From: a virus
IMG/VR virus record: IMGVR_UViG_3300025536_000041
Span: 1 to 20,401 of that record
Direction: 5' to 3' (one strand)
DNA length: 20,401 nucleotides
Made by a program: the position numbers and the translations under genes. Position 1 is the first letter of the stretch, and each line of letters starts with the position of its first letter. This document shows, in pieces, positions 3,721 to 20,388 of this stretch. The notes under the pieces are model-generated. The model made no database searches and had not been told where the DNA came from. It saw only the letters and a list, made by a program, of their open reading frames with translations.

Positions 3721-4309
3721 AAAATACTTTTTCATATTATCAATCGTACTCTTAACGCTATCCTGCCAACGCAGAATGATGCCAGTAAAGGCCAGCGAGG
3801 TAAAGGATAGCACCGTGGAGAAATCATCTGTCACCCGTAAGGACAGTGTTTTCTCCTTTATGCCACTAAACGCAAGTTTGGCAACTACGGTTGATAGTTT
3901 GCTTTCGGTGTTAAAGCAAATTCAATTATTAAATATCAACCCTGATTCTTTAGATACAAAACCAAAAGTGATTGTTTTAAAAGATTTGTCGGACACCATC
4001 GGTAAGACCAAAATTCTTGACAAGAAAAGCGGTCAAATAAGAGCCAGTTTATGGCTTGATCGTTCAGGTAATCTTCTATTTAGTTGTAATACAGATTCGC
4101 TTAAACATAAAATAAGTTGGCTTGAATCAGAGCTTAGAAAGGAGAAATATTATAATGAAACAAAGACTGTAGAAGTAAAGGTTGAAGTTCCAGACCCATT
4201 TATACCTAACTATATTTTGTGGATAATGGGCATCAGTTTAGCACTCAATGCGTGGGTATTTCGTAAGCCATTTTTAAACTTAATTAAGCACTTTTTTAAG
4301 CCTTGGTAA
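3713..4309 (+). CDS. Probable unimolecular spanin-like lipoprotein with C-terminal membrane segment
   Basis: 198 residues from the GTG at 3713. This start gives a proper signal sequence (MSKKYFFILSIVLLTLSC) and an 8-base overlap with the previous stop; an upstream in-frame start at 3680 would bury the signal. Cys18 sits in an imperfect lipobox (TLSC, Thr rather than Leu at -3), predicting an outer-membrane lipoprotein. The middle is Ser/Asp/Lys-rich, with a helical stretch (about 127-150) and a Lys/Val/Glu segment. Residues about 167-183 (YILWIMGISLALNAWVF) form a membrane segment followed by a basic tail (RKPFLNLIKHFFKPW). A lipidated N-terminus plus a C-terminal inner-membrane anchor is the topology of u-spanins such as T1 gp11, which fuse inner and outer membranes at lysis. 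Holin-like genes before it and an endolysin after it support this. Confidence 0.6.
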   Translation: MSKKYFFILSIVLLTLSCQRRMMPVKASEVKDSTVEKSSVTRKDSVFSFMPLNASLATTVDSLLSVLKQIQLLNINPDSLDTKPKVIVLKDLSDTIGKTKILDKKSGQIRASLWLDRSGNLLFSCNTDSLKHKISWLESELRKEKYYNETKTVEVKVEVPDPFIPNYILWIMGISLALNAWVFRKPFLNLIKHFFKPW

Positions 4310-19151: not shown

Positions 19152-19174
19152 TAATCACAAATAATATTTTTTAA

Positions 19175-19201
19175 CTATTGAATTGTTGGCACAATCAATA
19201 G
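19175..19201 (+). promoter_or_regulatory. Hairpin touching the methyltransferase start codon
   Basis: CTATTG (19175-19180) pairs with CAATAG (19196-19201), and ATTGT (19182-19186) with ACAAT (19191-19195): 11 base pairs with one bulged A and a TGGC loop. It ends one base before the ATG at 19203. In the mRNA it would hide the initiation region. As DNA it could be an operator. The left arm and loop (19178-19190) are repeated exactly at 20084-20096. Confidence 0.6.
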
Positions 19202-19202
19202 T

Positions 19203-20003
19203 ATGAAACAATTTACACTTAGAACTCCGATATCATATTATGGTGGCAAACAGAAATTGGTTGCCACTATTCTTAAATTTATTCCTGAACATAATCTTTA
19301 CTGTGAGCCATTTCTTGGAGGAGCTGCAGTATTTTTCGGGAAACAACCAAGTAGGGTTGAAGTAATTAACGACACAAACAAAGAGCTGATAAACTTCTAC
19401 AGGGTTTGCAAGAACCGATTCCATGAACTAAGTGCTTTGACGAGAATCACCTTACATTCAAGAGAGGATCATGATAGCGCATGGATAATTTACAATAAAC
19501 CTCATTTATTTGATGAAGTAAGAAGAGCATGGGCTGTTTGGGTTTTGAGCACCCAAAGCTTTAGTGCCATGTTAGATGGCTCTTGGGGCTATGATAAAAC
19601 TGATGATACAACTACTACAAAGATTGGTCACAAGCGTGAGCAGTTTACCGAAGACCTTGCAATTCGGCTTCAACATGCGCAAATTGAGTGCGCAGACGCC
19701 ACTTATATTATCCGTAGCAGAGACACGGAACAAAGCTTTTTCTATTGCGACCCACCTTATTTTAATTCAAATTGTGGCCATTATGATGGCTATACTGAGT
19801 CTGATTTTAGAGAATTACTTGACACATTAGCTTCTATAAAGGGAAAATTTATTCTTAGTAGCTACCCTAGCCAAATTCTAAAAGAATACTGCAAAAAGTA
19901 CGATTGGTCAATGTGGTCTGTAGAGCAGGCTGTTTCTGTAAATGCAAAATCAGGGTACTTGAAGCGAAAAGTGGAAGTGATTACAGCGAACTTTAAGTTG
20001 TAA
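19203..20003 (+). CDS. DNA adenine methyltransferase, D12 (Dam-like) class
   Basis: 266 residues. N6-adenine methylation of double-stranded DNA with S-adenosylmethionine. Motifs in D12 order: SYYGGK at 11-16 (motif X), YCEPFLGGAAVFF at 33-45 (motif I, cofactor loop), a central target-recognition part (about 65-170), and FFYCDPPYF with the catalytic DPPY at 183-186 (motif IV), then GKFILSSYPSQIL. All key residues are present and the length is normal. It has no partner restriction enzyme here, so a solitary phage enzyme that hides phage DNA from host restriction or controls packaging or transcription is likely. Its location, last before the right end, equals that of Mu mom. Expression appears to be restrained by the leader hairpin at 19175-19201. 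The target sequence is not predictable from this. Confidence 0.9.
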   Translation: MKQFTLRTPISYYGGKQKLVATILKFIPEHNLYCEPFLGGAAVFFGKQPSRVEVINDTNKELINFYRVCKNRFHELSALTRITLHSREDHDSAWIIYNKPHLFDEVRRAWAVWVLSTQSFSAMLDGSWGYDKTDDTTTTKIGHKREQFTEDLAIRLQHAQIECADATYIIRSRDTEQSFFYCDPPYFNSNCGHYDGYTESDFRELLDTLASIKGKFILSSYPSQILKEYCKKYDWSMWSVEQAVSVNAKSGYLKRKVEVITANFKL

Positions 20004-20019
20004 TTAAGCGATAAAAGTA

Positions 20020-20085
20020 GGCTGGGACGTGAAAGATACCACTCTATTCACTAAAACACCAAAGGCGTGTCCCAGCCGTATTTTT
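20020..20085 (+). terminator. Likely bidirectional terminator after the late operon
   Basis: GGCTGGGAC (20020-20028) and GTCCCAGCC (20069-20077) form a perfect 9-bp GC-rich stem with a 40-nt loop. On the plus strand it is followed by GTATTTTT, on the minus strand by TACTTTTAT. It starts 16 bases past the methyltransferase stop. The long loop contains one arm of another inverted repeat, so folding may compete. Confidence 0.5.
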
Positions 20086-20136
20086 GAATTGTTGGCCAGA
20101 ATTAATCCTTTGGTGCAGCTTTAAATAGAGTGGTAT
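20036..20136. repeat. 30-bp imperfect inverted repeat interlocked with the terminator stem
   Basis: Left arm 20036-20065 and right arm 20107-20136. The outer 13 bases (ATACCACTCTATT) and inner 8 (ACCAAAGG) are perfectly inverted, and the 9 bases between are mismatched but equal in length. The left arm lies inside the loop of the 9-bp stem 20020-20077, the right arm outside it, giving pseudoknot topology. Equal spacing argues for conserved structure rather than chance. Confidence 0.7.
20084..20096 (+). repeat. 13-bp direct repeat of the methyltransferase leader
   Basis: TTGAATTGTTGGC occurs here and at 19178-19190, flanking the methyltransferase gene. With a one-base gap the likeness continues for nine more bases (ACAATCAAT against AGAATTAAT, seven equal). 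It may derive from duplication of the leader, give antisense pairing, or mark a protein-binding site. Confidence 0.6.
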
Positions 20137-20138
20137 TA

Positions 20139-20146
20139 CAAAGATA
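20139..20146 (-). promoter_or_regulatory. Candidate -7 box TATCTTTG for the small RNA
   Basis: The plus-strand bases CAAAGATA read TATCTTTG on the minus strand, an exact match to the Bacteroidota -7 consensus TAnnTTTG. The -33 region upstream is only T-rich (TTTTTC) and lacks a clean TTTG, so strength is uncertain. Confidence 0.45.
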
Positions 20147-20388
20147 GTAGCAGAAATTGAAAGAAAAACGGGTATTTTGAAGCCTAAAAAAGTGAATTTT
20201 TACAACCTTTAAAAATTAGGCCGTTTCGTTTTTATATTTAGGTCGTGTGAAATTTGCGCTTTTATTAGCTTTTCCCATATATTTTATATTTTAATAAAGT
20301 TAACTTCTTTTCGTGTAAAGCAATTTGTTAAAATGGTATAATCGGTCCAAAATAAATGCAATTGCTTACCTTGCACGAAATTTTTTTT
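20147..20388. other. AT-rich non-coding stretch, possible phage right end / host junction
   Basis: There is no gene in these 242 bases. Base composition is more AT-rich than in the genes. Two similar words stand out: ATTAGGCCGTTT (20215-20226) and TTTAGGTCGTGT (20237-20248), and TCGTGT followed by A-rich sequence occurs at 20243 and 20311. Such spaced repeats could be transposase-binding sites of a Mu-like right end, but no defined end, target duplication or attachment core could be recognised. Confidence 0.3.

Follow-up and report, generated by a model that had tools for sequence, protein, structure and literature searches.

A candidate RNA switch for translation of the DNA methyltransferase in Mu-like phages of Bacteroidota

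The 20,401-base virus record analysed in this study, hereafter the window, has as its last gene a D12-class N6-adenine DNA methyltransferase of 266 aa (19203-20003, plus strand; Pfam PF02086, E = 7e-26), and the locus raises the question of how translation of this gene is controlled. The window carries Mu-like structural genes, including those for head maturation protease, tail sheath and tape measure (Pfam, PHROGs). Its head protease resembles the Mu I protein weakly, and the window, which is itself partial, yielded no transposase; MuA transposase is present in Peternella, a related cultured Mu-like phage. At 20219-20264, GGCCGTTTCGTTTTT...GGTCGTGTGAAATTTGCGC resemble repeats that occur in pairs at the right end of related phages such as L007, and thus the phage probably ends near 20264, the remainder being host DNA.

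The answer proposed here, with rather better than even confidence, is a two-part RNA switch that activates translation of the methyltransferase. A hairpin in the mRNA leader, its 3' arm lying against the start codon, would keep ribosomes off the methyltransferase start. A small RNA, presumably transcribed from its own opposite-strand promoter just downstream of the methyltransferase gene, would carry a stretch complementary in sequence to the loop of this hairpin and to the upper part of its 5' arm. In the cell, its pairing would displace the 5' arm, release the 3' arm and allow translation to start. Comparison of sequences among relatives establishes the two elements, the structure of the RNA, its co-evolved pairing with the leader and its exclusive association with the methyltransferase. 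Mu-like viruses of Bacteroidota thus seem to control DNA modification by an RNA where phage Mu uses a protein.

The leader hairpin and the putative small RNA gene

The sequence-only reading had described an 11-bp hairpin ending one base before the ATG. The hairpin is real (19174-19202, plus strand), and the MFE fold corrects its make-up to 8 bp (19174-19181 with 19195-19202) and another 4 bp beyond a one-base bulge, with the 3' arm (19195-19202) touching the ATG at 19203. This geometry is common to 36/37 relatives, in whose leaders the 14 nt before the ATG form the hairpin 3' arm; in the exception, L030, a downstream alternative start codon would restore it. The predicted cost of opening the region from -12 to +12 around the ATG averaged 8.7 kcal/mol in the leaders of loci with a downstream RNA; shuffling the leaders reduced it to 5.1 kcal/mol, and the remaining methyltransferase leaders gave 5.6 kcal/mol (P = 5e-8). 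No Shine-Dalgarno-type site was identified as the element hidden by the hairpin. According to these predictions, the leader structure would hide the start region, as is required of a cis-repressed leader.

Beyond the gene, the minus strand bears the elements that had been described there, among them a TAnnTTTG box, about 125 nt with two interlocked stems, and a T-rich end. The box, TATCTTTG (20139-20146, minus strand), is a putative small-RNA promoter that agrees with TAnnTTTG, the -7 promoter consensus of Bacteroidota (PMC7366714). It is present in most of the relatives that were found without requiring it, and a slightly different box, such as TATATTCG, precedes the same RNA in further loci; a -33 promoter element is not conserved among the RNA loci. 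In five loci (L120, L127, L134, L164 and L091), palindromes of the type GGGCTTTAAA...TTTAAAGCCC lie just 5' of the RNA box and are perhaps plus-strand terminators or operator sites.

The small RNA gene itself was placed at 20010-20135 of the minus strand, with approximate ends, by the promoter box, the conserved structure and the T-rich tract, and the box together with the conserved structure suggests that the RNA is transcribed. Covariance model R1 matches it at 65 bits, which is a match to a member of the model's own training set. Helix P1 joins 20124-20136 to 20036-20048 and shows covariation in relatives. Helix P2 (20069-20077 with 20020-20028) interlocks with P1 in a pseudoknot, and probably acts as the terminator stem too, since a T-rich tract follows it on the minus strand in most of the RNAs, as expected of a terminator. 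In addition, sequence and fold indicate an inner stem, P4 (20107-20115 with 20057-20065). A local hairpin, P3 (20094-20101 with 20070-20077), appears in the MFE fold of the window, where it would display the anti-leader segment and compete with P2; P3 is less clear in some relatives. The anti-leader segment, GCCAACAATTCAA read 5' to 3', occupies 20084-20096 of the minus strand. It was expected as an open loop in every RNA, but its core was clearly single-stranded in a loop in only 6/26 local folds, and in many loci it was partly paired when the RNA was folded in isolation.

The pseudoknot is supported by covariation. In an alignment of 28 RNAs, 7/9 P2 pairs had changes on both sides. In one clade of nine RNAs, two-sided changes were found in 12/24 of the P1 and P2 pairs, 95.8% of the cells were paired, and the observed covariation values were reached by no shuffle. 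In a second clade, where P2 is nearly invariant and P1 aligns poorly, the pseudoknot covariation was therefore weak. Rfam gave no match at the gathering score for the window, nor, with E-values up to 1, for six relatives, and no description of such an RNA was found in the open-access literature. The Bacteroidota phages gain an apparently undescribed family of structured RNAs.

Departures from this structure were also observed. In L123 (around 3786-3860), the anti-leader segment comes immediately after the minus-strand box and leads into a simple hairpin resembling a terminator; the pseudoknot is missing, and this is possibly a minimal version of the RNA. In L263, L276, L296 and L289, it is the 5' arm of P1, not the linker, that is antisense to the start codon or the first codons.

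Distribution of the RNA among methyltransferase loci

Methyltransferase queries in four viral-contig scans and one genome-contig scan yielded about 320 loci, of which 177, after dereplication, had sufficient downstream sequence; the named genomes among the methyltransferase loci were almost all Bacteroidota. The layout of the window is common to about 40 dereplicated relatives, which are phages and prophages of Bacteroidota. Cultured bacteria that carry the locus include Limnovirga soli KCS-6 (L117) and Flavipsychrobacter stenotrophus RB1R16 (L127). The sequence-only reading had advised looking in related prophages for the leader hairpin, the complement and the interlocked stems with compensatory changes; the three elements do co-occur there, and the changes are both compensatory and wobble-compatible. 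A further scan, for interlocked stems beside a minus-strand TAnnTTTG box, made no use of the leader and returned 33 credible loci; one extra match, L213, was dropped as chance.

The RNA covariance model was also run over two bacterial families, and 609 genomes or records were counted across all searches. Every one of the 17 matches of at least 42 bits lay at a methyltransferase of this kind. In 15 cases the two were immediate neighbours, L338 adjoined a decayed remnant, and L328 was about 1.5 kb downstream. Ten of the 17 were in loci already known from the methyltransferase search, and therefore seven matches make up the independent test of the association. Four weak matches of 33-36 bits (L335, L336, L339 and L340) had no methyltransferase nearby and were not counted. 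In these genome searches the RNA family was thus found only at this methyltransferase, as judged by the strong matches. The distant case is instructive. When L328 was extended (L341:1-6601), a cytosine methyltransferase and a small ORF were found between the adenine methyltransferase and the RNA gene, and the RNA still matches the leader of the adenine methyltransferase, TGGGGAAAACAAGC against TGGGAAAAACAAGC; therefore the RNA is directed at that leader and not at the adjacent gene.

Genome G003 holds two methyltransferase/RNA units with differing codes. In L324:1-3141, the genes on either side of a methyltransferase/RNA unit are host-like and apparently truncated, not phage genes; the locus may be a unit standing alone, a prophage remnant or a chimeric assembly.

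Moreover, a second arrangement was found in 55/184 methyltransferase loci, including L018, L034, L069 and L342 (Peternella). These loci have a long hairpin 5' of the gene, and a minus-strand TAnnTTTG-like box lies between the hairpin and the ATG. None of the 55 overlaps with the 37 core-matched loci that have a downstream RNA; taking 45 loci as the downstream class and ignoring shared ancestry, the chance of zero overlap is 6e-9. The second arrangement may meet the same need by cis-antisense control.

Pairing between the leader and the RNA

The sequence TTGAATTGTTGGC stands at 19178-19190 of the plus strand, where it forms the upper 5' arm and loop of the leader hairpin, and again at 20084-20096, so that 13 nt of the leader have a perfect complement in the minus-strand RNA, just as the sequence-only reading had stated. 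It might be argued that two unrelated elements match here by chance, given that a 13-nt match arises in shuffled leader/RNA pairs with P about 3e-4 for the two elements alone and that there were many possible places to look. This explanation, which we consider scarcely credible, is refuted by the comparative data, in which the same relation recurs with different sequences in about 40 relatives.

The relation between the two copies was quantified in the 33 structure-defined loci. The linkers scored a sum of 965 against their own leaders and 567 ± 26 against permuted leaders, the maximum of 20,000 permutations being 692.5, so that none reached the observed value. Among seven RNAs checked, three matched their own leader better than 33/33 foreign leaders, and for the other four, between one and four foreign leaders were not surpassed. 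The core sequences vary greatly among loci, as exemplified by GGGGAATAAGC, GTAAACAAAGC, GAATTGTTGGC and GTAGAATAAGC; the code varies between phages, and the leader and RNA copies within one phage agree. The matched segments are 11-23 nt long. In the closest relatives, where a loss of complementarity had been named in advance as a reason to give up the idea, complementarity is kept: the core is identical in L083, and in L085 two T-to-C changes are both G.U compatible.

The direction of such changes separates RNA pairing from another explanation, namely that a protein (e.g. the methyltransferase) binds both copies as a repeated site on DNA or RNA, or that they are the leftover of a duplication, without any RNA-RNA pairing. 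On the plus strand the copies are indeed direct repeats flanking the gene, and in L278 and L199 the leader and the downstream RNA copy are similar over 33-45 nt. However, over an 11-nt core in 37 loci, the transitions between leader and linker were 20 G·U-compatible and 0 incompatible (P = 2e-6), with leader G opposite plus-strand copy A in 17 and leader T opposite copy C in 3; the reverse transitions, which would break pairs with a minus-strand RNA, were absent. When each kind was counted once per methyltransferase cluster, the ratio was 17:0, 18:0 or 16:0, depending on the identity threshold. The result depends on anchoring, as a badly anchored 14-nt window gave 19:9 (P = 0.09), whereas the anchor at a shared GC with the 11-nt core gave 20:0, with which the cluster counts and later matches agree. 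One-sided transitions of this kind are predicted for RNA-RNA pairing and would not be given by a repeated protein site. Furthermore, a protein site or simple duplication is hard to reconcile with a code that differs among phages while the copies agree within each phage, and with a downstream copy embedded in a covarying RNA that has a promoter box of its own. It was therefore rejected and is given a very small probability. The similarity over 33-45 nt in L278 and L199 suggests, as a separate matter, that the RNA originated as a duplicated leader.

Taken together, the comparison argues that base pairing with the target mRNA leader is kept by selection, and that a small structured RNA has, as far as its sequence tells, co-evolved letter by letter to pair with the hairpin that covers the start. 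It is a clear case of co-evolved RNA-RNA pairing, in which many sequence codes would serve one function.

Direction of the effect and relation to known systems

The sequence-only reading had allowed for activation or repression. Two features favour translational activation: the hairpin 3' arm overlies the start region, and the RNA is directed solely at the 5' arm and loop, its target lying on the 5' side of the hairpin in 37/37 leaders. When the target was made unavailable, the predicted cost of opening the start fell on average from 8.9 to 4.4 kcal/mol and was lowered in 34/37. Fold predictions therefore agree with the activating branch of the earlier proposal, in which pairing with the left arm frees the right arm, and the sign that they suggest is positive. 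The structure prediction of the duplex, which had also been recommended, agreed in part: blocking the target behaved as described, but cofolding of leader and RNA left the start region closed in 9/29 complexes. The leader/RNA duplex lies 5-44 nt from the ATG, and in some loci it may, on this modelling, hinder the ribosome.

The opposite sign is less likely in our judgement, but it is a rival to be taken seriously. Natural antisense RNAs often bind the hairpin loops of their targets, and here the RNA would bind the leader loop and repress the methyltransferase in the lysogen, until late transcription passing across the RNA gene either halts or titrates it and so lifts the repression. The genes are convergent, and therefore read-through mRNA could titrate the RNA, which counts against activation and fits relief from repression. 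The four loci with the antisense P1 arm described above also count against activation; repression is more natural there, and in the three of them that were folded the start region was not strongly occluded. In addition, cis-antisense RNAs such as DonS repress in Bacteroides (PMC7366714). Nevertheless, repression leaves unexplained why a leader hairpin predicted to be strong enough alone to block initiation should abut the ATG, and why the RNA of the main class avoids the 3' arm and the ATG in all 37 leaders.

Long RNA duplexes can be substrates of RNase III, and the pairing, with matched segments of the lengths given above, might instead alter mRNA stability, for example by cleavage of the leader/RNA duplex. 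This would not account for the start-proximal 3' arm, and we regard an effect on stability in place of initiation as improbable.

If activation is the correct sign, these loci would form a natural family of phage riboregulators with a lineage-specific code between leader and trans-acting RNA, in which the methyltransferase stays untranslated until the RNA accumulates, for instance as the phage copy number rises in replicative transposition. We hold this broader picture to be about evenly balanced between right and wrong. It would also suggest that phages have solved the control of DNA modification by RNA as well as by protein, and the many ready-made leader/RNA pairs are candidate natural translation switches.

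Several known systems share parts of this design. In the RNA-IN/RNA-OUT system of IS10, the mobile element itself encodes the RNA that pairs with the translation-initiation region of the target gene; this RNA, RNA-OUT, overlaps that gene and represses it. The RNA described here is likewise borne by the element and would pair with the translation-initiation region of the element's own gene, whereas it is encoded beyond the 3' end of that gene and, in the main class, targets the 5' side of a hairpin that occludes the start. IS10 has been named among natural antisense controls (PMC4737173). The cis-antisense RNAs of Bacteroides such as DonS are also non-coding antisense regulators in Bacteroidota, and they are encoded divergently to susC homologues and repress (PMC7366714). 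Unlike in DonS, the pairing segment here is a second copy of leader sequence, located beyond the 3' end of the gene.

In phage Mu, the proposed action of Com is to bind a hairpin close to the structure that inhibits translation of the mom mRNA and thereby to expose the start signals (PMC6483171). The present locus resembles com/mom in that a DNA-modification gene stands at the right end of a presumably transposable phage, its start region is predicted to be hidden in mRNA structure, and a dedicated phage factor is proposed to open that region (PMC6483171). It differs in that Com is a zinc-finger protein whereas the factor here would be an RNA, and in that the enzyme is a D12 adenine methyltransferase (PF02086) and not of the Mom type. 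A Com-type zinc-finger gene was looked for directly 5' of the window methyltransferase, where the two ORFs have no Pfam or PHROGs match. Activation has been demonstrated for Com, and here we infer it. The locus is thus not a member of the com/mom system, and by analogy it would work alike if its sign is activation.

The same logic has been built synthetically. In the taRNA/crRNA riboregulators of the Isaacs design, a leader hairpin occludes the start signals and pairing with a trans RNA exposes them (PMC4737173), as is predicted here, whereas the present RNA is natural, phage-borne and pseudoknotted, and its function is a prediction. If the prediction is true, the RNA of these phages would correspond to Com of Mu, and the methyltransferase locus would be a naturally occurring version of the synthetic cis-repressed, trans-activated switch.
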